From Geminisphaera colitermitum TAV2 (GTDB taxonomy: Bacteria > Verrucomicrobiota > Verrucomicrobiia > Opitutales > Opitutaceae), in contig NZ_ABEA03000188.1 in the NCBI RefSeq assembly GCF_000171235.2, forward strand, positions 1 to 64,000: 64,000 nucleotides of DNA. Reading direction: 5' to 3'. Both the position numbers and the translations under genes were made by a program. Numbering within the stretch: position 1 is the stretch's first letter; each line of letters opens with the position of its first letter. Below the pieces are notes generated by a model. It ran no database searches, was not told the origin of the DNA, and was given only the letters and a program-made list of their open reading frames with translations. Below, piece by piece: positions 4,871 to 26,633 of the stretch.

Positions 4871-5701
4871 ATGAACCTCCCCCGCCACATCGCCACCGCC
4901 CTCGCGGCGCTGGCCCCGATTACCGCCCTCGCGCAACAAACCGCCAACGGCGCCGCTGCCGAGACGACCGTCAAGACCAAGTCCCTCCTCGCCGAACTCA
5001 GCGCCCCCTCCATCATCCCGCTCTGGTTCTGCTCCGCGGTCATCGTTTACCTCGTGATCGACCTCTATCTCAAGACGGCGCACAAACAATGCATCCGCCC
5101 CGCCGCCGTTGCCACCCTTCGGCAGCAATTCCGCGACGGAGCCTACCAGGACGCCTTCACCTGGACTGAACAACACCCCTCGCCCCTCGCCAACGTCATC
5201 CACGCCGGCCTCCGCCACTCGCCCAACGGCAAACAAGCCGCCGAGGACGCCATGGCCATTGCCATCGTCGGCGAAAACACCAGTTACCAAAACCGCATCG
5301 CCTACCTCTCCGTCATCGGCGTCATCGCCCCTATGATCGGACTCACCGGCACGGTGATCGGCATGATCTCGGCCTTCGCCTCCATGAGCCAGGCCGGAGC
5401 CGCCGACCCCTCCAAACTCTCCGGGGCCATCGGACACGTGCTTCACGCCACGGCCTCCGGACTGGCGGTGGCGATTCCCGCCTTCGTATTCTATTATCTG
5501 ATACGCAACCGCGTCACGCGCGTCATCCACGAACTCTCCATCGCCGCGACCGACCTTTTTAGAAAATTCCCCTACGAGCACCTCGAACACGTCGAGTTTA
5601 CCGGCGGCGAAACCTACGCCGGCCTCCCCAACTGGCTCCGTCCCCAAACCGAACAGCGCGAGCAACCCGCCGCCGAAGCCGCCCCCGACACCGCCAGCTA
5701 A
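4871..5701 (+). CDS. exbB: MotA/TolQ/ExbB-family proton channel protein
   Basis: 276 aa. There is a cleavable-looking N-terminal segment (MNLPRHIATALAALAPITALAQ), a membrane helix around LWFCSAVIVYLVIDLYL, and then two helices, YLSVIGVIAPMIGLTGTVIGMI and a later GLAVAIPAFVFYYLI. The pattern GxxAPMIGLTGTVxGM is diagnostic of the ExbB/TolQ/MotA channel fold. The protein would use the proton gradient to drive an envelope process together with the two ExbD-like partners downstream. The C-terminal tail is acidic and proline-rich. The system is not specifically TonB or Tol by sequence alone. Confidence 0.9.
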   Translation: MNLPRHIATALAALAPITALAQQTANGAAAETTVKTKSLLAELSAPSIIPLWFCSAVIVYLVIDLYLKTAHKQCIRPAAVATLRQQFRDGAYQDAFTWTEQHPSPLANVIHAGLRHSPNGKQAAEDAMAIAIVGENTSYQNRIAYLSVIGVIAPMIGLTGTVIGMISAFASMSQAGAADPSKLSGAIGHVLHATASGLAVAIPAFVFYYLIRNRVTRVIHELSIAATDLFRKFPYEHLEHVEFTGGETYAGLPNWLRPQTEQREQPAAEAAPDTAS

Positions 5702-5745
5702 TCCTCCTCCGAACCCTGAACACCCAACCCTAACCCACTACCACC

Positions 5746-6168
5746 ATGGCCAGCAGTGCAGGCGGCGAAGGCGAGCCCGAATTCCAGATCGCCCCCATGC
5801 TCGACGTCATGCTCGTGCTGCTCATCTTCTTCATGAGCATCACGGCGACGGCGGTGAGTCGATACGACCCTGCGATTCAGGTTCCCGTTGCGCCCGACGC
5901 CAACAAGAAGGAGGACTCCCAAAGCGAACTCGTATTCAACATCGCGTGGAAGCCTGACGCGCACGCCGCGCAAATCACCTACGAAGAAGAGCCGGTTAAT
6001 TTCGAGGCGGTCATTCCCCGCCTTGCCCGGCACCTCAAGGCCGATCCCAAGGTCCGCGTCCTCATCCGAGCCGACAACGAAACCCCCGTCAGTTACATCA
6101 ACCAAGTCATCGAAGCCGCCGCCAAAGCCGGCATCGTGGACATCACTTTCGCCACCATGAACCGATGA
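5746..6168 (+). CDS. exbD: ExbD/TolR-family biopolymer transport protein 1
   Basis: 140 aa with one N-terminal membrane helix (MLDVMLVLLIFFMSITA) preceded by the family motif FQIAPMLDVMLVLLIFF, whose Asp is the proposed proton-binding residue. A periplasmic domain ending in YINQVIEAAAKAGIVDITFAT follows, typical of the ExbD/TolR C-terminus. It lies 44 bp after the ExbB-like gene and is paralogous to the next gene. Two different ExbD subunits with one ExbB is a common arrangement in Bacteroidota and Verrucomicrobiota (family knowledge). Confidence 0.9.
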   Translation: MASSAGGEGEPEFQIAPMLDVMLVLLIFFMSITATAVSRYDPAIQVPVAPDANKKEDSQSELVFNIAWKPDAHAAQITYEEEPVNFEAVIPRLARHLKADPKVRVLIRADNETPVSYINQVIEAAAKAGIVDITFATMNR

Positions 6169-6196
6169 AAAAAAGCTAAACAGCTTTTTCCCTTCC

Positions 6197-6640
6197 ATGC
6201 GCCTTCCCGCCCACACCGCCAATCCCGACGTTGGCTTCCAGATCGCCCCCATGCTCGACGTGATGCTCGTGCTGCTTATCTTCTTTATGGCGCTGGCCGC
6301 GCAAATCCGCATCGAACACATCCTCCAGACCAAACTCCCCGGCGTGGCCGTGGCGAGCGGAACCGCCGAGTTTGTTGACGAGCAAATCCTCATCATAGAC
6401 GAAGCCGGCGAAGTCACCCTCAACGACGAAACCTACGACAACGCAGCCAGCCACGAAATGCCCCAACTCACCGGCACCCTCATGCGCCTCAAAGAATCGA
6501 GCGACGCCGCCAAGAGCAAAGTCGTCGTCACCCTCGTCAGCCACCCCGAGTCCCCCTACTACCGCACCATCGACGTCCTCAACGCCCTCGCCGTCGCCGG
6601 CATCACCAACGTCACCTTCACCGCCGACGCGGAACTGTAA
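6197..6640 (+). CDS. exbD: ExbD/TolR-family biopolymer transport protein 2
   Basis: 147 aa, with the same layout as its upstream paralog: FQIAPMLDVMLVLLIFFMAL at the N-terminus and a periplasmic domain ending in TIDVLNALAVAGITNVTFTA. The spacer before it contains a mini AAAAAGCT-aaac-AGCTTTTT hairpin (6170-6190) directly after the previous stop. Probably co-translated with exbB and the first exbD. Confidence 0.9.
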   Translation: MRLPAHTANPDVGFQIAPMLDVMLVLLIFFMALAAQIRIEHILQTKLPGVAVASGTAEFVDEQILIIDEAGEVTLNDETYDNAASHEMPQLTGTLMRLKESSDAAKSKVVVTLVSHPESPYYRTIDVLNALAVAGITNVTFTADAEL

Positions 6641-6649
6641 CCAAATCCC

Positions 6650-8616: not shown

Positions 8617-10152
8617 TCAGCGTGCCCGACTGGCGACGCCGTTGGCGGTGATCGCCATCATCGCCTCTTCCATCACGCGAGCCGAACGCGATGGATCGAA
8701 CTTCGCCGCACAGAACGCTTGCACGCCATCGATGGCCTCGGCAGGCGTCCGGGCGTTCATGATGATGTCGCGGATGGGTGCCAGGTCTCCCCGGAGTGTT
8801 TTTGCCCACTCGGGCGCCGCAGTCTGGGCGATCGCATTGGTTGGGTCGATCAGAGGCGCTCCTGGCGACGCGAAGGCAACGAAGGGACCAGGGGCGGGGG
8901 CAGACGGCATGCGCTCGATCGGGAGGCCGATGCGTTCACTGATGGTTTCCAAGCCGGAATCCGCGATCCGAAGCCCGCCGGCGGCAAGCGAACTGATAAG
9001 CGAGCCCGTGGCCTCGGTTTCATCCGCCTCCAGCGATCCCCATACGGCCAGTGGCGCCCGGCCTCGGTAGCCATTGATGCGGAGGTATTGCGTGAAGAGT
9101 TGATGTCGCAGGGTGGCGGCCAGACGGCGGGCGTCGGACTGGCGCTTGTCCTGGCGTTTGCTGGCCTGGGCATCGGAGGTGCCGGAGTTCATGCCGGTGG
9201 CCTGCGCATCGGAACTGAGGGTTTCACCCAGGATCAGCTTTGATTTCTCGCGGTTGCACAGTTCGAGGAATGTCTGGTAGGCGGCGCCACTGTCGTTGGC
9301 GGCGGCCTGCTTGATTTCGACCTCGGTTTCCTTGCTAATGACGAGACCACCCATTTTCTGAGAAAACTGAAACGCCGACAACAGCACTGCGCGGGAATCA
9401 TCATCGGCCTGGTCATACTTGCCGACGAGGAAAGGGCCGCCGTAGCGATCAAGAAAGCGCGCCCACCAGTCACGATCCATCATGGAAAGCAACCACCAGA
9501 ACACGATCGAACGCATGGGACCGCCCCAGTTGTCGGGTAGTGAAAGTAGATGTCCCCGATGGATGATGTAGCGGCCTTCCTCGGGCTTTTGTCCTCCGGG
9601 GCCGACTGGCCAGCCTTCTGTGTTGGTGGGCAAAATCTCCAACTCCCCCGACGTGTAGGAAAGCAACTGGTAAGGAACGGACGTGAGTTCGGCCAACTCG
9701 TAACGCAGGCCCGGCTTCGAACTGAGGCGGAAGGTTTTTTCCAGAAGCGAAACCGGCCAGAGCACGGAATCCAACAAATGGGCGCAGGCGTTCTCCCATT
9801 TTGGATAATCGGCGATCATTGCTTCGATGACGGCGGCGGCGATGACATCATCGGGATTCTTTTTATCCCACGGCTGGATGCTGAGGGTGTCGCTGGTGAC
9901 GGCCTCTTTGCGATCGGCGAAGCGGCCCTGGAGGTGAGAATCGGATGCGATGATTTCCTGATAGAGCTGAAACAGCCGCGTCACGTCACCGCCCTCGGCG
10001 GCCCGGAAGGTGTCATGCACATCGTCCACGGTCAGCGTGGACGCGATTGAAGTGGGGATGGCGCGGTTGTTGAACAGCGTCACCCGGCGGAGAGGGAGCA
10101 GCGAAGCGAGGTAACGGCTAATGGCCTGAGCGCGTTCTTTGAGTGTAAGCAT
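8617..10152 (-). CDS. Portal protein, Mu gp29-like (DUF935)
   Basis: 511 aa, close to the Mu gp29 length. N-terminal features include TLTVDDVHDTFRAAEGGDV and LFQLYQEIIASDSHLQGRFADRK, typical of DUF935 portals, followed by a long alpha/beta body and a variable Ala-rich C-terminus. It forms the dodecameric DNA channel at the head vertex and docks the terminase. It is the last gene of the leftward operon and ends next to the presumed prophage left end, whereas in Mu it is followed directly by F. Here the F gene is 18 kb away on the other strand. Confidence 0.9.
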   Translation of the reverse strand: MLTLKERAQAISRYLASLLPLRRVTLFNNRAIPTSIASTLTVDDVHDTFRAAEGGDVTRLFQLYQEIIASDSHLQGRFADRKEAVTSDTLSIQPWDKKNPDDVIAAAVIEAMIADYPKWENACAHLLDSVLWPVSLLEKTFRLSSKPGLRYELAELTSVPYQLLSYTSGELEILPTNTEGWPVGPGGQKPEEGRYIIHRGHLLSLPDNWGGPMRSIVFWWLLSMMDRDWWARFLDRYGGPFLVGKYDQADDDSRAVLLSAFQFSQKMGGLVISKETEVEIKQAAANDSGAAYQTFLELCNREKSKLILGETLSSDAQATGMNSGTSDAQASKRQDKRQSDARRLAATLRHQLFTQYLRINGYRGRAPLAVWGSLEADETEATGSLISSLAAGGLRIADSGLETISERIGLPIERMPSAPAPGPFVAFASPGAPLIDPTNAIAQTAAPEWAKTLRGDLAPIRDIIMNARTPAEAIDGVQAFCAAKFDPSRSARVMEEAMMAITANGVASRAR

Positions 10153-10170
10153 GATGTGTGTGTCCTCTGG

Positions 10171-10914
10171 TTAGATGGGACGGATGATGCCGCCCCGTTT
10201 TTGAAATTTTTTCGCCCATGGATTGCGGACGCCGGCGCGCACCGCGCCGCGGTTGACGCCGAGGGTGCCGGTTGGAGCGCCATGCGCATCCGCCCGGCCG
10301 GATTTCGACATGAGGGCATGCAGGGCGAGTTTGCCGCCGTCCCACACGTCGCCGTGTCCGCCGTCCTCCGCGATTGCCGCCACGAAACTGCCGCGATCCC
10401 GCGACACGAGGCGGATGTCAGTCTTGATCCATTCGCATGGCGGGAGCGCAAGGTATCCGTCCTCGATTGTATTGGTAAATAAATTACCAAGATAGGACTT
10501 CATCGTCATGCTCTCGCCCATGTGCTCGATCGTCTCGCTGGCGACGACAAGTTCCACCGGGACGAGTCCGGCAAACTCACGTCGCAGTTGCGCGGCGAAG
10601 AAGCGTTCGCTGGTCGCGTCGATGCAGAGCCGCCTTGCCCGCAGGCCATGCGGGAGTCCGGTCAAAATCGTGCGAAGGATTGCCTTGGTGACGGCGGGAT
10701 CAGCCGTTTTCCACCGCAACACGAGCCGCATGTAGTAGCTCAGCGCCACTTGCTGGCAGACGGACAACGAACTGGGGTTGCTCTTGTCCTTGGTCGTGGT
10801 GGCGATGTCCAAGCCCAGACCGATGCGCGGATGTTCCGGCGAAAAACAGCTCTGCCAATCCACCGGAAGAATGTCGGCGACGTTGACGGTTTTAACTCGG
10901 CGGGACGGCTTCAT
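10171..10914 (-). CDS. Terminase large subunit, nuclease part (split gene)
   Basis: 247 aa from the ATG at 10914, which overlaps the upstream stop as ATGA; the longer ORF in the track is not needed. Acidic nuclease-type motifs are visible: GLGLDIATTTKDKSN near the N-terminus, CIDATSERFF in the middle, and HGDVWDGGKLALHA at the end. This is the order expected for the RNase H-like C-terminal domain of Mu gp28 terminases. The ATPase domain is on a separate gene (11126-12058), with a 72-codon gene between them. The two presumably reassemble into one packaging motor. Confidence 0.8.
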   Translation of the reverse strand: MKPSRRVKTVNVADILPVDWQSCFSPEHPRIGLGLDIATTTKDKSNPSSLSVCQQVALSYYMRLVLRWKTADPAVTKAILRTILTGLPHGLRARRLCIDATSERFFAAQLRREFAGLVPVELVVASETIEHMGESMTMKSYLGNLFTNTIEDGYLALPPCEWIKTDIRLVSRDRGSFVAAIAEDGGHGDVWDGGKLALHALMSKSGRADAHGAPTGTLGVNRGAVRAGVRNPWAKKFQKRGGIIRPI

Positions 10915-11129
10915 GCGAGGGGCGGACGATGGGGGTTGGCTTTGTTGACCCAGGCTTTGCGGCAACGCATCCGGCGATAGCGTTGGCGTTTGAACAGTAG
11001 GTTGAGCACGTCGAAACGGGCACGATCCAGCTTGTCCATCCACGCCACCCAGCCGTGATCTTCGTCGGGAGGTGCGGACTTGAGCAGGTGGCAGTAACGG
11101 ACAACTGCGCGATCGAGTTTCGTGATCAT
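10911..11129 (-). CDS. Small basic protein between the two terminase halves
   Basis: 72 aa, highly basic, with LLFKRQRYRRMRCRKAWVNKA near the C-terminus. It overlaps both neighbours by ATGA, so all three are translationally coupled. I do not recognise the family. It could be a linker or adaptor that joins the terminase halves, or a small DNA-binding protein. It is not a homing endonuclease by length or motif. Confidence 0.7.
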   Translation of the reverse strand: MITKLDRAVVRYCHLLKSAPPDEDHGWVAWMDKLDRARFDVLNLLFKRQRYRRMRCRKAWVNKANPHRPPLA

Positions 11130-12058
11130 TCCACTACTGCCTCCGTGATGTTGGCTCCGACGCAGGTGCCCTTGCCGAGCGCCATGGCGCGACCAATGGC
11201 CATTAGGCTGACGGCGGCCGTGCCACCCGCGATGAACTTCAGGCCGTAGTTGCGATCCCAGGCCGTCTTGTCGAAGGCCAGCGCCCGGTGTTGTTCAGGC
11301 GTGATCTTCTCGCCCGTGTCGGGATGGTGCATTAACACACCAGCAAGCGCGGCATCCCAAGCATCCACCCGGTGGATCATCAGACCGTAGTCTGATTTGT
11401 AAAAATTGCCCGCCGCGTTGGGAGTGAACTCCGTGCCCTCCGGCGGCAAAAGCATCTCGTAGGAATAGTGCTTGTCGTCGGGCGGCGGCGTGGTGGCGAG
11501 GCGGAGACGGAATTGCGGGTTCGACTCCATGAACGGCTCGATCGCTTCGAGGACTTCCTGACAATTCGGCCACCGTCCAAACTCGTCGCCGATGATGTGT
11601 CCTGTCCAGCCGACCGCCGTGTTTGGATTCGGCGCGATCACACGCGTGCGACTGCACGTCGTGCGATCATGCCACAACTTCGCCTCCAGTTTGGAATGCT
11701 CGAACAGATCGCAGAAACCGTCGAAGTCGATGTCGTCGGCGTTGGTCTCCAGCTTCAGTGCATTCGCTGCCGCTACCGCCTTGAGCTTCGCCAGATGATC
11801 GCGCCACGACTGCGCCTCCTTCACGATAATTTCCGTGCCCAGTGCAATGGCCGCCGAAATGATCGACGTGAGCACACCCGGCGTCTCCATCATCCAATCC
11901 AGCGCCTCGTTGCTCAACAAATAGCTCTTCCCTCCCTGCCTTCGCCACACGTAACCGAGACGGCGCAGTGGATGTCGAAACCCAGCCCTCTGGTACGCAC
12001 GAAACGGCACCACACCAGTCTGGGGGGGAGAGGGGGGGCTTGTTTTAGCCTTACCCAT
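11126..12058 (-). CDS. Terminase large subunit, ATPase part (split gene)
   Basis: 310 aa from the ATG at 12058; a start 8 codons upstream is also possible. A Walker A-like RRQGGKSY occurs ~40 residues in and a Walker B HIIGDEFGRW around residue 155. A coupling-motif-like RLATTPPPDD follows. This matches the ATPase half of Mu gp28-type terminases, but the reading frame stops before the nuclease domain. The start lies within the end of the DUF3486 gene, again suggesting coupling. Confidence 0.85.
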   Translation of the reverse strand: MGKAKTSPPSPPQTGVVPFRAYQRAGFRHPLRRLGYVWRRQGGKSYLLSNEALDWMMETPGVLTSIISAAIALGTEIIVKEAQSWRDHLAKLKAVAAANALKLETNADDIDFDGFCDLFEHSKLEAKLWHDRTTCSRTRVIAPNPNTAVGWTGHIIGDEFGRWPNCQEVLEAIEPFMESNPQFRLRLATTPPPDDKHYSYEMLLPPEGTEFTPNAAGNFYKSDYGLMIHRVDAWDAALAGVLMHHPDTGEKITPEQHRALAFDKTAWDRNYGLKFIAGGTAAVSLMAIGRAMALGKGTCVGANITEAVVE

Positions 12059-12746
12059 TACTTGCCTCCTCCACCGGACCAAACATGTGCAAGCGCAATT
12101 GTTCCACCTTCACCGCCGGCTTCGCCTTGCCTTCGGCGATTTCCGCCGCCTTCCGGTCGGAATAAAATTTCAAAAACATCTCCGCCGTCGCCCGCTGCAC
12201 CTTGATTTCCTCCAATGCCAGCTTGCGATCATTCTGCGCCAGTCGCCGCTCATTTTGCTCGATTGTCCGCTCCGACATCCGCGCCTTCTTTGCGTCCGCC
12301 TGACTCTTTTGCAGCCGGGCGAGCGCATCCACAAGGCCGAGGTAGGTGCCCGGTTTTTTCGACAACAGTTTTTTCTGTGCCTCCACATCCAAGCTTTCGA
12401 AAATCATGAGGAGTTGGCCGCCGGCGATGGCCGTGGCGCCCTCCGTAGTGCTTCCGCCGCTACGCTCCGCGAGGGCCAGCGAGTAGTCCGCGAGCCCCTT
12501 GGTGCGGTCGAGTTGTTCGCGTCGCTCGCGCCATTCCTTGTAGCCGCCTTGCCGCCACTCGCTGAGATTTTGTGCGGAGATGGGTTCCTCGCCAAAATAC
12601 TCGTCCAACACCGACAATACCTCCGGCAGCGTGTGCAGCCAGGCGATGATGCGCGGGCCTGGCTCGCCATCGTCCAGACGACGATTGACCTCGTTGCGGA
12701 TAACGAGGGGCAGACGGGCGATCTTACCGGTGCGGGCGGTGGTCAT
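12051..12746 (-). CDS. Mu gp27-like small terminase subunit (DUF3486)
   Basis: 231 aa from MTTARTGKIARLP, a start that forms an ATGA overlap with the stop of the outer spanin gene. The family pattern IARLPLVIRNEVNRRLDDGE and later ISAQNLSEWRQGGYKEW is typical of DUF3486, the DNA-recognition subunit of Mu-type terminases. The middle and C-terminal parts form long charged helices suited to oligomerisation. It lies directly upstream of the ATPase half of the large subunit, as in Mu. Confidence 0.88.
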   Translation of the reverse strand: MTTARTGKIARLPLVIRNEVNRRLDDGEPGPRIIAWLHTLPEVLSVLDEYFGEEPISAQNLSEWRQGGYKEWRERREQLDRTKGLADYSLALAERSGGSTTEGATAIAGGQLLMIFESLDVEAQKKLLSKKPGTYLGLVDALARLQKSQADAKKARMSERTIEQNERRLAQNDRKLALEEIKVQRATAEMFLKFYSDRKAAEIAEGKAKPAVKVEQLRLHMFGPVEEASNG

Positions 12747-14209: not shown

Positions 14210-15118
14210 CTAAGTCCAAACGGGGTCTTGAGACGGAAAAGAAAGAGCAAGTGTTTTCACCCAATCGCATTCCTCCTGTGTCACCAATGTCCCCAACGCT
14301 TCGGTTCCATTGTAAGCGCGACTCATGAGTTGTGGGGCTGCATCATGGTCCGTCCCATGGATCATGTAGAACATCACCTTGGAACTCTTTGCATCTTCGT
14401 AGATGGGATAATAATTGGCATGTTTGTAGCCTAGTTCCTGTTTGAATCGTTCAACCAACATCCACGGACGATCTTTGCGCTTTGCCTGCACAAAAGGACG
14501 CCAATCTTCCAACCCCGTCCACCTCTTCAGAACAACATCAGGATTCTTTAGATTTTTGGTGCAACGTTCAAACCACCATGATGGGAGAAAGTAAAAAATC
14601 TCAACTTTGTGACCAGCTTGTTTATGCTGGGCAACCGCCTGCACCGTCGCCCAGTCGCATTCCGTAGTGCGTTGATCGAGAAGGCAGAACGTTGCCATTT
14701 TTTCCTTGGTCGGATTTGCCGCCAAATAACGCGGCAGTTCCGTGTTGCTGTCACCAGCGACAATATCAACAGGACGGTTGTCGCCTTTCGCCTCTGCCTC
14801 TTTTAGCTCACGGAGACAGGCAAGTCCTTTTTGGCCAATCTCACAGAGGGTGAATTTTCGGAACCATTTTGGTGTCATTTCCAGCACTTGCTTGGCAGCC
14901 CACGATGATTCCCTATTCTCATTTTGGGGGCCGGCAAATGCATCAATGTAGTATCCGTGATGTGTGATCATCACGAATAGCTTCAGGTAACGCTGAATCA
15001 ACTGCGCCTTGCTTGCCGTCCAAACTCGCCTTTGCAGTGTGCTTACCCAGACGGGAAGAGGGCGAGTCGGGTATTTGTTAATATCAAAGAGGCACCCATC
15101 TGCATCTGGATCGGTCAT
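14210..15118 (-). CDS. tcmP: Three-Cys-motif partner protein TcmP
   Basis: 302 aa. Recognised by KAQLIQRYLKLFVMITHHGYYIDAFAGP near the N-terminus (GxYxDxFAGP-type motif) together with FCLLDQRTTECDWATVQ and the adjoining DUF5131 gene, its usual partner. The N-terminal segment resembles a methyltransferase-like Rossmann start, but the family function is not established. It overlaps the partner gene by ATGA and is followed by its own terminator, which looks like a moron cassette between repressor region and late genes. Confidence 0.8.
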   Translation of the reverse strand: MTDPDADGCLFDINKYPTRPLPVWVSTLQRRVWTASKAQLIQRYLKLFVMITHHGYYIDAFAGPQNENRESSWAAKQVLEMTPKWFRKFTLCEIGQKGLACLRELKEAEAKGDNRPVDIVAGDSNTELPRYLAANPTKEKMATFCLLDQRTTECDWATVQAVAQHKQAGHKVEIFYFLPSWWFERCTKNLKNPDVVLKRWTGLEDWRPFVQAKRKDRPWMLVERFKQELGYKHANYYPIYEDAKSSKVMFYMIHGTDHDAAPQLMSRAYNGTEALGTLVTQEECDWVKTLALSFPSQDPVWT

Positions 15119-15957
15119 GCCATGGCAGGAAGCCCATCATAGACCTCACCGTCAAGCAAACGACCAGCATCTTTCTTCCCTAACGGTGCCATGGGTATGG
15201 CGGTTCCGTCATGAGATTTCACGGCAACCACCCCCTTGATGCTCTCTTCGATAATTTCAATTGGTGCCCAGTGCCCCCACTGTTTGAAATGGAAAGCTAT
15301 ATCGTATTCCTCAGCGGCATCACGCAGCCCCCGTGCCCAATCAGGGTGCATGGGACGTGATTTGGCCCCACTTTCTCCACCAGCAATGATCCAAGAAATA
15401 GGAGAGGATTTATTTCCCTTTACCCACTTGGAAATGTCAACCGGACCCAAAAGAGGCTCACAGCTAAGAAAGCGCACTTTGGCTGGGTTTTCCAAAAGAT
15501 GAGGGATGCGCAAGTCAGCGTAGCGTTGATTTTCTACGGTTGTTCCAAGCCAGACATTGTCTGGCCAGAGATCGCCCCACGGGGCGAGACGCTTAACAAG
15601 CTGGGGACGTTTGGTGAGAAGAAGCCAGTCGAGCATTGGGGTCTCAGCTATGAGTCCCCACAGTCGCTCACGACTGCTATCTAGATCCCGGCGATTTTCA
15701 AAAACGTCGGCCATTGATGCACAAAACACCCGCGCCCGCTCATTGGCAACAACGGCATCCGCATGCCACCGTAACGGTTCCTTCCAGTGGTTGTCGGAGA
15801 AAAAGCGGCGGGCCGCCTTGGCCCCCCAAACATCCTCGCCCACTCGCTTCGCCCATGACTCGGCATAGCAATGATCGCATGCGGGAGACACCTTGGCGCA
15901 TCCCCACCAAGGGTTAAATGTATGATGAGTCCACTCGATCTGTGAGTTCTTGCCCAT
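15115..15957 (-). CDS. Phage Gp37/Gp68-like three-Cys protein (DUF5131)
   Basis: 280 aa from MGKNSQIEWTHHTFNPWWGC; the ATG 13 codons upstream is less likely. The motif CAKVSPACDHCYAE contains a CxxxxxxCxxC cluster like that of radical-SAM-related DUF5131 proteins. LLLTKRPQLV, VWLGTTVENQ and IIAGGESGAKSRPMHPDW are family hallmarks. It is paired with TcmP. Known family members are carried by phages and genomic islands; the biochemical role is unsettled. Confidence 0.85.
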   Translation of the reverse strand: MGKNSQIEWTHHTFNPWWGCAKVSPACDHCYAESWAKRVGEDVWGAKAARRFFSDNHWKEPLRWHADAVVANERARVFCASMADVFENRRDLDSSRERLWGLIAETPMLDWLLLTKRPQLVKRLAPWGDLWPDNVWLGTTVENQRYADLRIPHLLENPAKVRFLSCEPLLGPVDISKWVKGNKSSPISWIIAGGESGAKSRPMHPDWARGLRDAAEEYDIAFHFKQWGHWAPIEIIEESIKGVVAVKSHDGTAIPMAPLGKKDAGRLLDGEVYDGLPAMA

Positions 15958-16063
15958 GATCAAAACAATATCGTGCGCATCCAACCCAAGGCGCAATCAC
16001 GTTAGTTGAAATCCTGCGCGCAAAAAGCTTCACTGTAGGACGCATGACGCAGTCTGTGTCGAG

Positions 16064-17822: not shown

Positions 17823-17910
17823 GCGAAAAAGTGAAGTTTTGTTCTCATTGGATCTTGACGCGAACTTTTATTCGCTTCTCTATTGACGGACGTAAACCAA
17901 AGTTCACACG
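17818..17910. promoter_or_regulatory. Divergent early/repressor promoter region with inverted repeats
   Basis: Two inverted repeats are seen: TTCAC-N8-GTGAA (17818-17835), overlapping the repressor start, and GCGAA-N6-TTCGC (17860-17875). A further half site AGTTCAC lies at ~17901. A plausible rightward -35 TTGACG is at 17855-17860, with a weak -10 near 17878-17883 directly beside the second repeat. They fit operators for the cI-type repressor and the Ner-like protein. Confidence 0.55.
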
Positions 17911-17923
17911 CCGCCCCCGCTCA

Positions 17924-18112
17924 ATGCAAGCCTCAACTCGTCATGATCCGGTCGTTCTGAAGATCGCTCTTCTGAAAGCGCGAGACCGCTTTCCGACTGT
18001 GGCGGCACTTGCCCGCTACATCAATCGTCCACGTCCGACGGTCAGCGCGGCTATCAATCGCGGTCAGCATCCTCGGGTGCTCAGTCAGATCAGGGAGGTG
18101 TTGCGTGGATAA
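17924..18112 (+). CDS. Ner/Cro-like small DNA-binding protein
   Basis: 62 aa from MQASTRHDPVVLKIALL; the longer ORF start would run through the operator region. A helix-turn-helix is visible in FPTVAALARYINRPRPTVSAAINRG. Its place as first gene opposite the repressor matches Ner/Cro-type regulators that turn down early and repressor transcription. Confidence 0.7.
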   Translation: MQASTRHDPVVLKIALLKARDRFPTVAALARYINRPRPTVSAAINRGQHPRVLSQIREVLRG

Positions 18113-18113
18113 C

Positions 18114-18335
18114 ATGGATACCATGGCCCTGCGCCGCGTTGCCCGCATTGCGTGGGAAAATCGTGAGCGGCTGGAACTCAATCCAAACGACACCGAACAA
18201 GTGCTGATCGCTTGGATGGCCGTCGGCACGAACGACGAAGCGGAAGCCGCTTCTGCCCTGCTTGCCGCTATCCGCGAGGCCGACCGCAAGCAGGCCACTT
18301 TCGACCGTCTCCTTCAACGCACCCCCGCCGCCTGA
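18114..18335 (+). CDS. Small early phage protein
   Basis: 73 aa from MDTMALRRVARIAWENRERL; a GTG at 18105 overlapping the previous stop is an alternative start. Helical, with IAWMAVGTNDEAEAASALLAAIREAD. Unknown function. It follows the Ner-like gene without a gap, within the early operon. Confidence 0.55.
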   Translation: MDTMALRRVARIAWENRERLELNPNDTEQVLIAWMAVGTNDEAEAASALLAAIREADRKQATFDRLLQRTPAA

Positions 18336-18337
18336 TC

Positions 18338-18676
18338 ATGGATACGACGACACCTGCAACCACGTATCGCCCGATGCCGATGCCGGCGGATTTTTGCACG
18401 GAGGCCGAAATAGCCCTGCACCGGGAGTGGATGGCCCTGCCCGGAACGACCCGCATGGAAGCCGAGCTGGTCGAACTGAAACGCCAACTCCGGGCCAAAC
18501 ACGCGGAGATTCGCAAGGCCAAGGCGGCCACATCCCGCGCCGCGGATCGTTTCATCGCCACGCCGGGCGGAGCCCGGTGGTGGAAAGCCTGGTTGGCTGC
18601 CAGCCGCGAGAACTGCCTCTGCCGCACCGCCCATGCGGGCGAGACGCCCGCGCCACGCCAACCCGCCGCCGCCTAA
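18338..18676 (+). CDS. Small early phage protein with repeat-derived C-terminus
   Basis: 112 aa from MDTTTPATTYRPMP. A charged coiled segment (AELVELKRQLRAKHAEIRKAKAA) is followed by CRTAHAGETPAPRQPAAA. That tail is encoded by a copy of the dispersed gggcgagacgcccgcgc word that also builds the 31.3-31.4 kb spacer. No known domain. Confidence 0.55.
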   Translation: MDTTTPATTYRPMPMPADFCTEAEIALHREWMALPGTTRMEAELVELKRQLRAKHAEIRKAKAATSRAADRFIATPGGARWWKAWLAASRENCLCRTAHAGETPAPRQPAAA

Positions 18677-18684
18677 CCTTTCCC

Positions 18685-19590
18685 ATGTCCGAACACACCT
18701 CCACACACACCACCACGCTCACGCCCGACGAAGTGTTCTTCGCCGATCCCGCCACGCTCGCCGTGCATCCGCTCCTAGCCGTCATGCCGCCAGTCACCCG
18801 CGAGGATGCCGAGACCGAGGGGTTTATTGAAACCGTCCGCCAGTCCGGCCGTATCGATATCGCCATTATTCTGGATGAGGAAGGCCGCATCATGGACGGC
18901 CGCCGCCGTCGCCTTGCCGCTGCCACGCTCGGCCTTCCTCTCCCCGCCGTTCGCCGTCCGTCCTCCGAGGCCGCCACCATCGTCCTCAACGCCCTCGCCG
19001 GACGCCGCAACCTCACCAAAGGCGCTCTCGCCTACCTCTCCCTCCCGCTCCTCCAGCCAGCGATTGAGGAAGCCCGCCGCCGCTGGGTCGCAGCTCTTCA
19101 AACCGGGACAGCAGGGACCAAATCCAACTCAGTTGGATTTGGTCAGAAGACCCTCGCCCAGATCGCCGCCGACCTCGGTTTCAGTGACGAGCTTTTGCGA
19201 CAGGCGACCAAAGTCCGCGACCTGCTCAACGATCCCACTGTTTACACATGGGGCGAGGCCGCGCAGGAGGCCACGCGCCGGGGCTGGTTCGAGCCCAAGC
19301 TCTTCGCCGGCGAGATCGGCCTCGGCGGCATCATCCAAGCCATCGCCGGCAAGACCGCCACTGACGGACAAGCCCGCGTTGTGCCCCCCGTCGCCGAGCT
19401 TTTCCAACGCGATTTCAGCAGTGTCGGCAAACGCTTCACCGCCAAATGGGAAACCCTCTCGCCCGAAGAGCGCCGCCCCGTCGTCAAGGCCGTCGCCGAC
19501 GAAGTCACCACCTGGCCCGAGGACGTGCAACGAGCCCTCCTCACCAGCCTCAAGTCCGCCCTCAAGGCCGGACCCGAACCCAAGTTCTAA
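18685..19590 (+). CDS. ParB-like partition/nuclease-fold protein
   Basis: 301 aa from MSEHTSTHTTTLTPDEVFF. The N-terminal half carries the ParB fold signature (LLAVMPPVTREDAETEGFIE, then IDIAIILDEEGRIMDGRRRRLAA). The middle has a helix-turn-helix-like QIAADLGFSDELLRQATKVRD. ParB-like proteins recur upstream of transposase genes in Mu-like phages and may act in replication or transposition control (inference). The next spacer holds half of the AGCTTTC junction repeat and the CTTTTTCCAAAATG start context. Confidence 0.8.
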   Translation: MSEHTSTHTTTLTPDEVFFADPATLAVHPLLAVMPPVTREDAETEGFIETVRQSGRIDIAIILDEEGRIMDGRRRRLAAATLGLPLPAVRRPSSEAATIVLNALAGRRNLTKGALAYLSLPLLQPAIEEARRRWVAALQTGTAGTKSNSVGFGQKTLAQIAADLGFSDELLRQATKVRDLLNDPTVYTWGEAAQEATRRGWFEPKLFAGEIGLGGIIQAIAGKTATDGQARVVPPVAELFQRDFSSVGKRFTAKWETLSPEERRPVVKAVADEVTTWPEDVQRALLTSLKSALKAGPEPKF

Positions 19591-19622
19591 CCCACTGATT
19601 TCAGCTTTCAGCTTTTTCCAAA

Positions 19623-21590
19623 ATGCCCACCGATTTTCAGGTCAACGAGGAAGCCCGCCGCATCGAAGCCGTGAAGACGATTCTCGTGTTCACGGGGCAG
19701 GGTTTTTCGCAGAACGCCGCCGCCGCGCAGGCCGGGCTTTCCCCGGCCAAGGCGTCGCGCCTCATGAGCCTGTATCAGATCGGTGGATTCGCCGCCCTGC
19801 GCCCCCGCACCACCAACAGCGGACGACGCCCCCTCGTCACCCTCAGCGAGGTGGAGAAAGCCGCCATCCAGCGCCTCACTCTCATGAGCGATCCCCACGA
19901 CCCCCAAAAAACTCGCACCGTCGGCGTCTCCTTCGCCCTGCGCACCTACGCCCGTTCCGAAACCTGCCGCCCCGAACTCGCCGACGTGATCCTCAAACCA
20001 CGCACCAGCAAACACACCCTCACCCGCACCCTCAAACGCCTCGCCCGCCCCACCCAGTCCAGCCGCCTCCTCAACGCCGGCCCCGACACCTTCAATCTCC
20101 ACGGCATCTGCACCCCACGCGATCTCACCTACATCGACTTCGACGGGCAGGAAAAACCCATTCACCCCGGCCTCGTCTTCGAGGCCGACGACATGACCAG
20201 CAACGAACCCTGCTGCGTCGAATGGGACGACCCCGCCGACCCCTGCGCCGCCCGCTACGGCGTGCGCCTCGTGCGCCCCCAAGTCCTCTTCTGGCTCGAT
20301 GTCGGCACCGGCCGCTACGTCGGCTACTCCACCATCCTCCGTTACAACGACGCCTACCGCGCCAAAGATATATTGTGGTCCCTCTCCCACATCTTCCACT
20401 CCGTCGGTGCCCCCCGCTTCCTCCGCTTCGAATACGGCACATGGGACGCCCACCTCATCAACGCCATCCAAAGCGTCCACCACATCTGCCAAATCCAGCG
20501 CGCCACGTCCGCAAAAACCAAATACATCGAAAACCGCTTCAACATGCTCCAAAAATTCCTCGCGCTCGGCGGGGTGAGCATGGGCCGCCACCGCGGCGTC
20601 AAAGAACGTGAAACCAAAGACTGGATCGCCTGCCGCGCCGGCTCCCGCGACCCCCGCCCCCTCTTCCCCACGCTCGCCCAGTGGACCGCCCGCGTGGACG
20701 CCGCCCTCGTCGCCTTCAACGCCGAACCCGTCGAAGGCGAAATCTACGGCCCCGCCAACGCCCGCCGCTTCCACAACCGCCGCGCCTGGATACCCGACGA
20801 AATCTGGCACCAGCACATGGAGACCGCGCCCATGAGGAAGCCGACGCTGGAAGAAAGCTACCGCTTCCTCCCCGAACAAGCCCCCGTCACCATTCGCGGT
20901 GCCCACGTCCGCATCAAAAGCGCCGAGCACGACGCCACCTTCTACTTCTACTCCGATCACTTCGCCCGCCTCGGCGACGGCTATCAAGTCACCGTCTGCT
21001 GTGACCCCTCCCAGCCCCACCTCGGCGCCGCCATTTTGAACCGCGAGACCGGCGCCCGCGCCGCCATCGACCCCGCCTCCCCCGTCGGTCTGGCCAGGCC
21101 CTACCGCGAAGCCCAGCTCATCTGCATCGCGGAGGCCGTCGATCGCGTCCCCCAATTCTCCGCCACCAGCCAGTGGGACGACCGCGCCAGCTTCGAGCGC
21201 CGCCGCCGCTACCGCGAACAATGCCGCCTCCAATACCGCGCCATCATGCCCTTCGGACGCGGCCCCCAGTCCGCCGCCACCGAACACCGCGACGGCCGCG
21301 GCAACGTCGCCACCCTCGCTGTCAACGCCCACCGCCTCTCCGATCCCACCACTTCGACGTTGGATGTTGAACGTTCGACGTTGGACGTTCGGCGCGAAGC
21401 GCCGCGTCCCCTCTCGCCCGCCATCGCCGAGCGCGCCCGCGGGCAGGACACCCGCGCCCTCGTCCGCGAAGCCGCCGGCCGCCTCACACCGGCCGACCTC
21501 ACCGCCGCCACGGAGGATGACGACATCATCACCGAAGCCCCGCCCGCCGCCTTTTCCGCCGACGAAATCGCCAGCCTTCTCAGCCAGTAA
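19623..21590 (+). CDS. MuA-like DDE transposase
   Basis: 655 aa. The N-terminus has a helix-turn-helix (SQNAAAAQAGLSPAKASRLM). The RNase H-like core shows VFEADDM (Asp ~187), FWLDVGTGRYVGYS and KYIENRFNMLQKFL (Glu ~302), followed by a Mu-type C-terminal beta domain (EQAPVTIRGAHVRIKSAEHDATFYFY). It joins phage ends to target DNA in replicative transposition, activated by the MuB-like ATPase downstream. Residues ~577-595 are encoded by the GTTGGA/GTTCGACG dispersed repeat, an in-frame insertion near the C-terminus. Confidence 0.93.
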   Translation: MPTDFQVNEEARRIEAVKTILVFTGQGFSQNAAAAQAGLSPAKASRLMSLYQIGGFAALRPRTTNSGRRPLVTLSEVEKAAIQRLTLMSDPHDPQKTRTVGVSFALRTYARSETCRPELADVILKPRTSKHTLTRTLKRLARPTQSSRLLNAGPDTFNLHGICTPRDLTYIDFDGQEKPIHPGLVFEADDMTSNEPCCVEWDDPADPCAARYGVRLVRPQVLFWLDVGTGRYVGYSTILRYNDAYRAKDILWSLSHIFHSVGAPRFLRFEYGTWDAHLINAIQSVHHICQIQRATSAKTKYIENRFNMLQKFLALGGVSMGRHRGVKERETKDWIACRAGSRDPRPLFPTLAQWTARVDAALVAFNAEPVEGEIYGPANARRFHNRRAWIPDEIWHQHMETAPMRKPTLEESYRFLPEQAPVTIRGAHVRIKSAEHDATFYFYSDHFARLGDGYQVTVCCDPSQPHLGAAILNRETGARAAIDPASPVGLARPYREAQLICIAEAVDRVPQFSATSQWDDRASFERRRRYREQCRLQYRAIMPFGRGPQSAATEHRDGRGNVATLAVNAHRLSDPTTSTLDVERSTLDVRREAPRPLSPAIAERARGQDTRALVREAAGRLTPADLTAATEDDDIITEAPPAAFSADEIASLLSQ

Positions 21591-21615
21591 CCACCACCCG
21601 ACAACCCACGCCGCC

Positions 21616-22530
21616 ATGATCGCCATCAACATCCAACGCCCAACATCCAACACCCAACGTCCAATAAAAAAAGTATCCTCCCCTTCGGAGTTGGATGTTG
21701 GACGTTCGACGTTGGACGTTCGGCGCGAAGCGCCGCGCACGGCCTCCGGCCGCGCCTCCGCCGCCCGCGAAACCTTTGTCGAGACGCCCGCCACCCGCCT
21801 CATCTGGGCCGGCCTCGATTACGCCGTGCGCAACAACTCCATCGCCCTCATCGAAGGCGACACCGGCCACGGCAAAACCCTCGCCACCGAAGCCTGGAGC
21901 CTCGCCCGCCCCCACCTCGCCGTCATCCTCATCGAAGCCCCCTCCATTGGCGGCGTCAGGCTGTTCCTCTCCGAAATCTGCCGCGCCATCGGCGAGACCG
22001 GCAACCTCTCGCTGGCCGAAATGCGCCGCGTCATCCGCGACTGGTTCGCCGAATCCGACAACCGGATACTCATCATCGACCAGGCCCACGACCTCCTCCC
22101 CCGCAGCCGCGGAGCCAAGGCCGACAAAATCGACTTCCTGCGCGAACTCCACGATTTTGCCGAGTGCCCCATCGGCCTGCTCTGCACCGTCAAACTTGTG
22201 CGGGAAATGTCCCGCAGCGCCTACAACTTCGAGCAAATCATGGGCCGCGTCGGGATGCCCGTAAAACTCCCCGCCGAACTCGGCGAGGAGCACTACCGCC
22301 CCCTCATCGTCCCCTGGTTCCCGCGCCCCGGCCCCAAGCTCCTCGCCGCCTGCGGCCAGGTGGCCAACGATAAACTGCCCCGCCAGAAAGGCCGCCTCCG
22401 CCTCCTCTCGCAAATCTGCCGCCTGGCCAACCGCGTGGCCGCGAAAAAAGGCGAAACCCTCGCCGAGCACCACTTCTTCAAAGCCCTCGCCCTGCGCGAC
22501 CAGATGATGGGCAACCCCGCGCACGTCTGA
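21616..22530 (+). CDS. MuB-like AAA+ ATPase
   Basis: 304 aa. Walker A is GDTGHGKT (~81-88) and Walker B is RILIIDQAHDLL (~150). The domain starts at about residue 47. It binds target DNA and stimulates the transposase (family role). The first ~45 residues (QRPTSNTQRPI, then LDVGRSTLDVRREAPR) are translated copies of the same dispersed repeat found near the transposase C-terminus, in inverted and direct orientation, so they are unlikely to be functional family sequence. The start at 21616 is the only ATG that fits. Confidence 0.88.
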   Translation: MIAINIQRPTSNTQRPIKKVSSPSELDVGRSTLDVRREAPRTASGRASAARETFVETPATRLIWAGLDYAVRNNSIALIEGDTGHGKTLATEAWSLARPHLAVILIEAPSIGGVRLFLSEICRAIGETGNLSLAEMRRVIRDWFAESDNRILIIDQAHDLLPRSRGAKADKIDFLRELHDFAECPIGLLCTVKLVREMSRSAYNFEQIMGRVGMPVKLPAELGEEHYRPLIVPWFPRPGPKLLAACGQVANDKLPRQKGRLRLLSQICRLANRVAAKKGETLAEHHFFKALALRDQMMGNPAHV

Positions 22531-22532
22531 TC

Positions 22533-23051
22533 ATGCCCACCGCCGCCGACATCACCAACCTTGCCGCCCTCGTGCGCGAACTCTCCGTGCACCAGCAAGC
22601 CCTTGCCCTCAGCGACGCCGCCCTCGTGCGCCGATACCCCGATCTTGGCAGCCCCCGCACCTGGCGCGGACGCCTCATGGCCCAGGCATGGGGCGAACTG
22701 GATGTGGATGCCTGGATCGTGCGCCTGCGCTCCATCACCGACGCCATCGACACCGAACCCGCCACTCCCGTTCACCGACCGCAAGACCCCTGCTGGCTCG
22801 TCAAACGCCACCTCGCCGAGTCCGAACGCGGCCTCGCCGAACGCCACTACGACGTAGCCCTCGCCCACCTCGCCGCCGCCCGCCGCGAAACCGACGCACT
22901 CCTCGCCGAGCACGAACATCCCGCCTCCACCATCAATGAAAAAGACAAAAAAACTGAACCTCGCACCGGCCCAAATCGCCGAACTGCGCGCCCGCCTCTG
23001 CGCCCACCTGTCCTACCTCGGACGCTTCACCGACCAGCTCACCATCATTGA
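22533..23051 (+). CDS. Early phage protein, unknown
   Basis: 172 aa, starting 3 bp after the ATPase stop. The N-terminal half, including LVRELSVHQQALALSDAALVRR and RTWRGRLMAQAW, looks like a helical DNA-binding segment. The last ~38 residues overlap the next gene out of frame and are Pro/Arg-rich, so the functional part probably ends near residue 135. Confidence 0.6.
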   Translation: MPTAADITNLAALVRELSVHQQALALSDAALVRRYPDLGSPRTWRGRLMAQAWGELDVDAWIVRLRSITDAIDTEPATPVHRPQDPCWLVKRHLAESERGLAERHYDVALAHLAAARRETDALLAEHEHPASTINEKDKKTEPRTGPNRRTARPPLRPPVLPRTLHRPAHHH

Positions 23052-23214
23052 GCAAATCCAGCATTGCCCAGGCAAACACGATGCCGCCGCCAGCGACATC
23101 GAAACGGCGATCCTCACCCTGCACCGCGAAGCCATCGACCTCGCCGTCGAAGCCGACGAACTCGCCGAAGTCATCGGCCAACTCACCGACAAAATCGAAG
23201 CCCCCCGCGCATGA
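22936..23214 (+). CDS. Small helical early protein
   Basis: 92 aa, starting inside the end of the previous ORF. Helical and acidic toward the C-terminus (EADELAEVIGQLTDKIEAPRA). The segment QLTIIEQIQHCPGKHDAAASDIETAIL looks like a paired-helix dimer. No family recognised. Coupled by ATGA to the next small gene. Confidence 0.6.
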   Translation: MKKTKKLNLAPAQIAELRARLCAHLSYLGRFTDQLTIIEQIQHCPGKHDAAASDIETAILTLHREAIDLAVEADELAEVIGQLTDKIEAPRA

Positions 23215-23309
23215 ACACCCCGCGCCTCACCTTCTGGCTCGTCGTCGCCAACGCCTTCGCCGCCGGCTTCTGCGCCGCGACCCTCACCGTCCTCCTCATC
23301 ACAACCTGA
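23211..23309 (+). CDS. Very small single-span membrane protein
   Basis: 32 aa, essentially one membrane helix (FWLVVANAFAAGFCAATLTVLLI). The start overlaps the upstream stop as ATGA, which supports translation. Unknown role. Confidence 0.45.
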   Translation: MNTPRLTFWLVVANAFAAGFCAATLTVLLITT

Positions 23310-23389
23310 TCTCACGCGGAGACGCAGAGGCGCAGAGAAAACCATTCTGAAAATTCTGTTAATTCCGTCCAAAAACAAAACCACCCGCC
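23310..23389 (+). repeat. Dispersed CGCGGAG/GCAGAG spacer repeat, copy A
   Basis: tctcacgcggagacgcagag is followed by accattctgaaaattctg and ends before a start codon. A very similar copy lies at 23837-23914 and a related piece at 8207-8250. Confidence 0.7.
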
Positions 23390-23836
23390 ATGTCCAAAAT
23401 CGAAATATCCACCGTCGCGAAAATCATCACGACGATCATCCCGGAACCGGCCATCACCAAGCCGATCCTTGAGGCCATCAACGAAGCCGCCGCCGCCAAA
23501 GCCGATAACGAGGAAACGCCGCCGCCGGTCAAAAAACAATGGTGCATCCTCATCTCCGATCCCGAGGGCACGCTCCCCGAAAACGATCTCGTTGGTTGGG
23601 TTCTGCAAATCCCGGAAAACGAGAGCGTCCTCACCACGCAGGAGCGCATTCACCGCGCCGCCTACGAGTTCAACACCACCAAAAAAGGCCGCATGTTGCC
23701 CGCCGAGAAGATGGGCGACGCCATCGAAAACATCCCGGCCAAGCACTTCAAAGAACAGCAAGTCTGGATCAAGTCTAAGACCCCCGTGCTCATGCTCCGC
23801 ACCGACAACAAAATCCCGATGGAGAAAAAGGAATAA
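23390..23836 (+). CDS. Early phage protein, unknown
   Basis: 148 aa. A beta/alpha segment, KKQWCILISDPEGTLPENDLVGWVLQIPE, is followed by TTQERIHRAAYEFNTTKKG. This resembles a single compact domain but I do not recognise it. It is bracketed by two near-identical 70-bp spacers of the type tcacgcggag...gcagagaaaaccattctg (23310-23389 and 23837-23914). Its position before gam suggests a role in replication or DNA protection. Confidence 0.65.
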   Translation: MSKIEISTVAKIITTIIPEPAITKPILEAINEAAAAKADNEETPPPVKKQWCILISDPEGTLPENDLVGWVLQIPENESVLTTQERIHRAAYEFNTTKKGRMLPAEKMGDAIENIPAKHFKEQQVWIKSKTPVLMLRTDNKIPMEKKE

Positions 23837-23914
23837 TTCACGCGGAGCCGCGGAGAGCGCAGAGAAAAACCATTCTGAAAATTCTAAAAAATCTGTCCAA
23901 ACCCACCACCCACC
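23837..23914 (+). repeat. Dispersed CGCGGAG/GCAGAG spacer repeat, copy B
   Basis: ttcacgcggagccgcggaga is followed by accattctgaaaattct, almost the same as the spacer before the previous gene. The duplication suggests that whole junction spacers are copied between gene boundaries. Confidence 0.7.
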
Positions 23915-24472
23915 ATGCCAACAATCGCACAATCCCCCACTCCCCTCGAATTGATCGACGTTCACGCCAAAGCCTACGCCGAGGCCCGCCGCGTGCTCGC
24001 CGAGCGCACCGCCGCCCTGGAAGATGAAGTCCGCGACGCGCACCGTCGCAAGCGCCCCGGCATCAAGACTGCTCTCGCCATCGCGCAGGATACCCAGGCC
24101 AACCTCTCCGCCGCCATCCAGTCCCACCCGGAGCTTTTTGAGAGACCGCGCACCATGACGCTCCACGGCGTCAAAATCGGCTTCCAGAAAGGCAAGGGAA
24201 AGCTCACTTGGGACGATGAGGAATCCGTCGTCGTCCGCATTGAAAAAATGTTCGGGCTCGATGCCGACGCCTACCTTGTCATCAAGAAAAAACCCTCCGC
24301 CACCGCGTTGGGAAACCTCGAAACCCGCGAACTCGCCAAGCTCGGCGTCACCGTCGAAACCACCGGCGACCAAGTCTTCATCAAGACCAGTGACAGCGCC
24401 GTCGATAAGCTCGTCAAAAAGCTTCTCAAGGAAGGAGCGGTTGAGGAAGCGGAAGAGTCCGGCAGCTCATAG
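23915..24472 (+). CDS. gam: Gam-like host-nuclease inhibitor / DNA-end protection protein
   Basis: 185 aa. The Mu Gam family is recognised by the N-terminal coiled helix, TMTLHGVKIGFQKGKGKLTW and the C-terminal region with VRIEKMFGLDADAYLVIKKKPSA. Gam is a bacterial Ku-like dimer that shields linear DNA ends from RecBCD/exonucleases. It lies in its expected place downstream of the A and B genes. Confidence 0.88.
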   Translation: MPTIAQSPTPLELIDVHAKAYAEARRVLAERTAALEDEVRDAHRRKRPGIKTALAIAQDTQANLSAAIQSHPELFERPRTMTLHGVKIGFQKGKGKLTWDDEESVVVRIEKMFGLDADAYLVIKKKPSATALGNLETRELAKLGVTVETTGDQVFIKTSDSAVDKLVKKLLKEGAVEEAEESGSS

Positions 24473-24503
24473 CTCCAAGCTCACAGCTCCAAGCTCTACT
24501 CAC

Positions 24504-25046
24504 ATGCAATACTTCACCAACGATCAAAAAGCCCAGGTCGCCATGCTCGCCAAACGCGCCTACGACGCCTGGGAGATGCGCGAAGCCCACGAGTGCATCA
24601 ACGATCACCTCAGCCGCACCGCCTGCTTTGAACAATGGCGTCACCAGGAAACAGGCAAAGTCACCGGTGGCATCACCTCGCTGCGCCGGTGTGTCAGCGA
24701 ACTCCACTTCCTCCCCCTCATTGCCCACTTCAACAACCTGCTTGGCGAAGGCGGCATGGCCCTGCGCACCCTCCTCCGCCATGCCGAGGCCGGCCGCATC
24801 ACGGTGTTTTACAAACTCCAGCAAGCCCTCGCCGAACGCGGCCTCAGCGAAGGTTACGCTGCCGCCATCTGCCGCCGTCAGTATAAATGCGACCTCGGCG
24901 ACGCCGAGGAAAAGCAACTCTGGCACCTGTTTTTCACCATCAAAAACCGCCGCAAGGCCGTCGCAAAACCCGCGCGCAAGGCCCCGCGTTACGTCCGGGA
25001 AAACCTCGGCACACTCACCACGACCGACGACGGCAACCCGTTTTGA
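24504..25046 (+). CDS. Early phage protein, unknown
   Basis: 180 aa from MQYFTNDQKAQVAMLAKRAY. It resembles a helical replication- or regulation-type protein: CINDHLSRTACFEQWRHQETGK, then SLRRCVSELHFLPLIAHFNNLLGE. It takes the place of the gp16/GemA gene of Mu but lacks the motifs I would need for that call. The 31-bp leader is a tandem agctccaagctc repeat. Confidence 0.6.
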   Translation: MQYFTNDQKAQVAMLAKRAYDAWEMREAHECINDHLSRTACFEQWRHQETGKVTGGITSLRRCVSELHFLPLIAHFNNLLGEGGMALRTLLRHAEAGRITVFYKLQQALAERGLSEGYAAAICRRQYKCDLGDAEEKQLWHLFFTIKNRRKAVAKPARKAPRYVRENLGTLTTTDDGNPF

Positions 25047-25133
25047 ACCACTAATACACACTGATGAACACTAATAAAATCCGGTCCGAATTAGTGACCA
25101 TTAGTGATCATTAGTGGTTAAAAAATCCGAAAC
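25047..25133 (+). repeat. Mirror-paired CACTAAT/ATTAGTG junction repeat
   Basis: The upstream half has aaccactaat and cactaataaaat. The downstream half has attagtgaccattagtg and attagtggtt, its reverse complement. Same design as the AGCTTTT and TTAATTCTT junctions but with an unrelated word. Confidence 0.75.
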
Positions 25134-25487
25134 ATGAATACACGAAAAACCAGAAAACCCCGCCCGGCGAAACCCGCGCCCCTCGGCTATATCATCCTCA
25201 CTGCTGCCGGACTGCCGGCAGACAGCACCATCACCAACGTCCCCAATGGCAGCATCCGCATGTTCCCCTCCCGCCGCGCCGCCGCCAGTCTGGCCGCCAA
25301 GACGCAATGGGTGATCGGGGAAATGCAAGGCAGTCTTCTGGAAGCGTGGGGCGCGCCAAAGCTCGCCATGATCCCCTTCCGCGTCGTCCCCGTGTTCGGC
25401 AAAAAACGCCGCCCACCCGTCACCCGTCGTCCCAACACCACGCTCCCCCCCCCCTCCTCCCACACACACACCATTCTTAATTTTTAA
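25134..25487 (+). CDS. Small early phage protein, unknown
   Basis: 117 aa. A basic N-terminus is followed by GYIILTAAGLPADSTITNVP and FPSRRAAASLAAKTQWVI, giving a compact alpha/beta domain. The last ~12 residues are encoded by the poly-C/TTAATTCTTAATT junction repeat and are probably dispensable. Confidence 0.55.
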   Translation: MNTRKTRKPRPAKPAPLGYIILTAAGLPADSTITNVPNGSIRMFPSRRAAASLAAKTQWVIGEMQGSLLEAWGAPKLAMIPFRVVPVFGKKRRPPVTRRPNTTLPPPSSHTHTILNF

Positions 25488-25509
25488 TTCTTAATTCTTA
25501 ATTTCCATC

Positions 25510-25965: not shown

Positions 25966-26045
25966 CCGCGCCATGCGCGAAAATCCCAATGGAGAAAATG
26001 ACCATTCCAACACCAGACACTCTCCTTTGCTCCGCCTTGCCAAAT

Positions 26046-26079
26046 AACCCCCTTTGCCGACTTTTGCCGAGGGGTTTTT
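26046..26079 (+). terminator. Possible terminator at the upstream edge of the attC array
   Basis: AACCCC, a 19-nt loop, GGGGTT and a T run on the plus strand. The stem is short, so it is moderate as a terminator. It marks the left edge of the cassette region. Nothing else is seen in 25966-26045. Confidence 0.4.
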
Positions 26080-26086
26080 CCAAGTG

Positions 26087-26308: not shown

Positions 26309-26319
26309 TGTATCCAATT

Positions 26320-26620: not shown

Positions 26621-26633
26621 AGCGGCCGCAAAA

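Follow-up and report, generated by a model that had tools for sequence, protein, structure and literature searches.

A probable two-polypeptide phage large terminase whose gene junction admits unrelated genes

Introduction

The large terminase (TerL) has been described, as a universal feature, as one protein with both an ATPase and a nuclease domain (PMC7824862). In the 64,000-nucleotide stretch of Geminisphaera colitermitum TAV2 DNA analysed here (contig NZ_ABEA03000188.1, positions 1 to 64,000; hereafter the window), the two sets of motifs lie in separate prophage genes, with a third gene of 72 codons between them. An initial annotation of the locus proposed a packaging motor of three polypeptides in which the small protein connects the ATPase to the nuclease. 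The locus thus raises the questions of whether the split is genuine, whether the two flanking genes together specify a large terminase, and what the gene between them is doing there.

Results

A packaging module with separate ATPase and nuclease genes

On the minus strand of the window, the genes of the module run in the order TerS-like gene, ATPase gene, 72-aa gene, nuclease gene and Mu-type portal gene. The ATPase reading frame (11126–12058, 310 aa) starts with an ATG at 12058 and has its stop codon at 11128–11126; the 72-codon frame (10911–11129) runs from an ATG at 11129 to a stop at 10913–10911, and the nuclease frame (10171–10914, 247 aa) runs from an ATG at 10914 to a stop that ends at 10171. 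Two ATGA overlaps hold the three together, one between the ATPase stop and the small-ORF start and the other between the small-ORF stop and the nuclease start. The initial annotation had this arrangement, a basic 72-codon ORF with an ATGA overlap on either side, exactly right in coordinates and strand. At the other end of the ATPase gene, its start overlaps the stop of the candidate gene for the small terminase subunit (TerS; 12051–12746, minus strand) by 8 bases (12058–12051). This candidate sits between lysis-type genes and the ATPase gene, and its homologues are found 5' of the ATPase gene or of a fused TerL gene in nearly all related loci; as it has no match in Pfam or PHROGs, its name rests on position and conservation. 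The portal gene (8617–10152, minus strand) matches PF06074 (Portal_Mu, E 1.7e-57), and the location of the ATPase and nuclease genes, between a TerS-like gene and a PF06074 portal gene, is that of a TerL gene.

The portal, together with a minor head protein of the Mu F type encoded on the opposite strand of the same prophage (27883–29457, plus strand; phrog_220, E 5.2e-38), marks the element as a Mu-like phage. A transposase was sought in the ORF at 18262–19590, which has no match in PHROGs. The packaging module (8617–12746) is located at the left end of the prophage, on the strand opposite to the early and head genes (17831–36000). Two adjacent genes at 14210–15996 on the minus strand, one of them a TcmP gene (TIGR04474, E 1.4e-33) and the other weakly matching a radical-SAM pair, lie between the repressor of the Mu-like prophage and the lysis-type genes. 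A second element occupies 46000–58000 on the minus strand and is possibly an internal-membrane or double-jelly-roll virus; it includes a match to a major head protein (54077–54898; phrog_8536, E 1.8e-4) and, at 55351–56013, what looks like a HerA/FtsK-type packaging ATPase (phrog_2666, E 1e-12).

The two genes correspond to the halves of a large terminase

The first ORF alone carries the ATPase motifs RRQGGKS (Walker A), IIGDE (Walker B) and ATTPPPDD, and the last ORF alone carries the acidic nuclease motifs GLGLD, IDATSE and HGD, which bears out the assignment of the former to 11126–12058 and the latter to 10171–10914 in the initial annotation. Across 34 loci the Walker A GK[ST], Walker B DE and T-P-P-D motifs are conserved without exception or nearly so, and nuclease residues D36, E103, H187 and D189 are invariant in all 34. 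The ATPase aligns with the N-terminal half of one-piece relatives; its matches to the terminase large subunit family phrog_2 (E 2.2e-5) and to T4 gp17 (E 0.028) are weak, and it falls under the curated Pfam cut-off (Terminase_6N). The nuclease aligns with the C-terminal half of the same relatives and has no sequence match in Pfam, PHROGs or NCBIfam. Its AlphaFold model, of modest confidence (pLDDT 65.5), points to an RNase H-like fold, with the nuclease of the HCMV terminase (E 9.3e-5) and T4 gp17 (E 6.8e-4) as top matches, followed by RB49 gp17 and HSV pUL15. Single-ORF relatives span both halves, and in these the phrog_2 match covers both domains. The locus therefore specifies a P-loop ATPase with a coupling motif and an RNase H-like nuclease with acidic residues, as expected of TerL, in separate ORFs rather than in one polypeptide, and the same is true of 30 other loci. 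With the ATPase below the Pfam cut-off and the nuclease without a library match, automatic annotation misses terminases of this kind.

The split is real, old and widespread

To place the split among relatives, we assembled 46 related loci from genome and viral collections for a larger tree, and found the ATPase and nuclease to be separately encoded in 31 and joined in one piece in 15. The maximum-likelihood tree gathers all split rows into a single branch (SH-aLRT 98), which also contains three one-piece rows. The TAV2 genome itself holds three split prophages and one with a one-piece gene, and close relatives outside it (L018, L028 and L045), whose ATPases are 72–82% identical, are also split. 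As these three and the two other prophages of the same genome share the split, that of the window is no sequencing frameshift, in agreement with the initial annotation. Sequencing or assembly error, or the decay of a dead prophage, is hardly credible as a general account and was rejected for the clade, since the 31 split loci, drawn from isolates, MAGs and viral contigs, share the split point and keep the catalytic residues; what speaks for error is one MAG locus (L019/L031). In that locus the nuclease frame is broken near its start, probably by an assembly error, and the ATPase gene and ATGA junction are intact. In all three ORFs of the window dN is well below dS in comparisons with homologues, with dS near saturation. 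We conclude that the split is real and old, and that it is widespread in the clade.

The distribution of the two forms suggests that there was probably one split, in the linker between the two domains, and at most a few re-fusions. Rooting on the one-piece relatives, together with the general architecture of TerL, gives the direction of change, from which it follows that the one-piece form is ancestral and the split derived. One locus inside the split clade, L058, encodes a one-piece TerL (5010–6641) whose linker keeps the split-type junction ITETLTLANIRDLVPADW, and is likely a re-fusion. A very long branch carries the two further one-piece rows, L081 and L083, whose placement is unsure. The informatively titled records come from Verrucomicrobiota or Kiritimatiellota, the exception being a weak match in a gammaproteobacterial MAG, and among named phage records there was no match for the ATPase, the nuclease or L058.

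Unrelated genes occupy the junction

We examined the junction in 27 split loci. The ATPase and nuclease genes are directly adjacent in 14 (including L060, where a short gap holds only a 23-codon ORF), and in the other 13 the slot is occupied by unrelated genes. Besides the 72/74-aa gene of the window and L016/L014, these comprise a C5 DNA methyltransferase (L024/L015), an N4/N6 methyltransferase with further ORFs (L028), an MT-A70 methyltransferase (L035), a 65-aa gene with a glycosyltransferase-like gene that was named by eye and has no Pfam match (L034), and unrelated small ORFs (L029, L032, L045, L050, L052, L054 and L055). The slot methyltransferases match PF00145 (E 6.8e-69), PF01555 (E 5.8e-40) and PF05063 (E 4.3e-15). 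At 24 of 26 loci an [AG]TGA overlap links the ATPase stop to the start of the next gene, whichever gene that is. Insertion of a gene at this point leaves both halves intact, which is why such a slot exists. The spacing between the genes for TerS and the ATPase is variable as well, ranging from no gap to ~2.3 kb (L028, L034, L035, L046, L058 and L060), which suggests a second cargo slot.

The contents of the junction bear on whether a single terminase protein is still made, through splicing of an intron, excision of an intein or programmed frameshifting. An intron-split terL restored by splicing is known (PMC12363816), and the adjacent split loci differ by one -1 frame step. However, a search of the junctions against Rfam recovered no intron or other RNA family above threshold, its one sub-threshold match to a frameshift element (E 0.64) being judged due to chance, and the small ORF of the window has no match in Pfam, PHROGs or NCBIfam and hence none to an intein or homing endonuclease. 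On these grounds intron and intein were rejected. Where a gene fills the slot, moreover, a frameshift would give fusions to unrelated proteins, and in the window two shifts would be needed. We regard a single restored protein as very unlikely, and favor two separate polypeptides.

A functional tie between the slot genes and the terminase is a further alternative, in which methyltransferases or a small basic protein would mark or mask the cut site and so control the nuclease. Three unrelated classes of DNA methyltransferase in the same slot of different phages fit this idea, as does the basic character of the small protein in the window. Most slot genes, however, are small unknowns and in many phages the slot is empty. 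Methyltransferases are, moreover, common anti-restriction cargo in phages. Control of cutting by the slot genes appears improbable, if somewhat less so than a restored single protein.

The 72-aa protein is most likely inserted cargo

The protein encoded in the slot of the window is basic (17 K/R and 7 D/E, pI 10.7) and is modelled as three helices (pLDDT 86), with no fold match in the PDB. It has no family match in Pfam, PHROGs, NCBIfam or PADLOC and no match among named phages or plasmids. That it is a third part of the motor, connecting ATPase and nuclease, was the central proposal of the initial annotation. Tight ATGA coupling on both sides of its gene and a dN below dS agree with this proposal, as does its presence in the same slot of two prophages with diverged terminases: the prophage in the window and L016/L014 belong to one genome, their ATPases share only 55% identity, and the gene could be useful in that setting. 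When the three-gene order was sought in relatives, though, these proved to be the only two of 31 split loci with the small gene in the slot; the remaining 29 lack it, unrelated genes fill its place elsewhere, and the coupling is equally tight where methyltransferases do so. Nor does it look like a piece of the TerL linker, a candidate that was rejected, as one-piece relatives have nothing similar in their linkers.

Four other Mu-like phages encode homologues of the 72-aa protein (L013 and L094, both from one phage; L067; L095; L096). The homologous genes belong to the early region, have GemA-like, MuB-like or Gam-like genes close by, and are not next to a terminase gene; the GemA and Gam identities are sub-cut-off Pfam matches (E 7e-4, 9e-4 and 1.5e-4). 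These phages have other terminases. In G441 a one-piece TerL similar to Mu gp28 lies ~18 kb from the homologue on the same contig, so the small protein is not limited to split terminases, and in G214, G463 and G581 we found no ATPase or nuclease of the window type. The opposite orientation of packaging and early genes seen in the window recurs in G441, G463 and G214, where the portal and small genes are on different strands. In L013/L094 the 72-aa gene comes immediately after another early gene, and a homologue of that early gene is still present in the window (25134–25487, plus strand; phmmer E 6.7e-6), which is consistent with transfer of the small gene out of the early region into the terminase slot.

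Because it is optional, is replaced by unrelated genes and has homologues in early regions, the 72-aa protein is most likely inserted cargo, probably from a Mu-like early gene cluster. The separation of the ATPase and nuclease genes stands, and a third motor subunit is highly improbable. Judged by its basic charge, its helical model and its homologues in early regions, the 72-aa protein may have a DNA-binding or regulatory role rather than that of a structural connector.

ATPase and nuclease halves have different histories

Compared with L024, the window has an ATPase that is 87% identical and a nuclease that is only 60% identical. The nuclease and portal of L024 are instead closest to those of L014 (70% and 71% identical), despite an L014 ATPase that is 52% identical. 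In topology tests two groupings fail on the nuclease data, namely the ATPase clade of five (AU p 3e-8) and the pair L012 and L024 (AU p 0.012), and a grouping of L024 with L014 fails on the ATPase data (AU p 8e-6), these p values being somewhat optimistic as the groups were named after the trees and identities had been seen. Judging from this significant conflict between the ATPase and nuclease trees, halves have been exchanged between phages, and the near saturation of synonymous sites indicates that the exchange was not recent.

Discussion

The explanation that we consider probable is a large terminase made of two polypeptides held together non-covalently, the junction of whose genes is a point of insertion and recombination and whose 72-aa neighbor is an inserted gene. 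The split and its spread, the catalytic residues, the variable slot, the tree conflict and the early-region homologues can be read from the sequences, and from there we infer non-covalent assembly, translational coupling and the role of the small protein. In outline, a single event would have split the gene in the inter-domain linker. The junction would then have received extra genes, usually with the tight start-stop overlaps kept, the 72-aa gene among them having moved in from a Mu-like early gene cluster, and would also have become the site where phages swap ATPase and nuclease halves. The ATPase and the RNase H-like nuclease may be translated from one message by coupled translation of the overlapping genes and reassemble on the portal without a covalent link.

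A bolder version, which we put forward tentatively, is that the ATPase alone forms the translocating ring and that the nuclease joins only for the first and last cuts, as a freely recruitable cutter, so that ATPases and nucleases of different phages could be combined. If so, the packaging motor would be a two-component machine with interchangeable parts, unlike the one-chain TerL. How the nuclease is held off during translocation and recruited for cutting has been studied in proteins whose domains are inseparable unless engineered. A terminase that is naturally in two polypeptides, together with its one-piece relatives in the same genome and its exchanged halves, would be a ready system for testing what contacts the motor requires, whether the nuclease remains on the ring, and whether halves that do not match can function.

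In the open-access literature searched, split terL appears through introns only, and a two-gene terminase with variable intervening genes was not found there, which is weak evidence of absence. The PHROGs families phrog_7579 and phrog_5909, short 'terminase large subunit' families that match one TerL half only, may hide further split cases or may represent fragments.

The locus resembles TerL of the T4 gp17 and Mu gp28 type in its ATPase motifs, RNase H-like fold and acidic residues, and in the operon order of small subunit, large subunit and Mu-type portal. It differs in that the domains are separate polypeptides between whose genes others may intervene. In Jug phages, terL is likewise in pieces, being interrupted by group I introns (PMC12363816); there RNA splicing rejoins the pieces, whereas in the window the break is at the domain boundary, is marked by start and stop overlaps, and shows no intron. 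Moron-like cargo sites of phages share with the slot a fixed position within a conserved operon and a content of unrelated genes that varies. The slot, unlike those sites, lies between two domains of a protein that is elsewhere single, and cargo can be there only because the gene was already split. Finally, the trees of TerL ATPase and nuclease domains are not strictly congruent (PMC12846349), so that different histories of the two parts have a parallel at the domain level; in the window, by contrast, the parts are separate genes, which allows exchange without recombination inside a reading frame.
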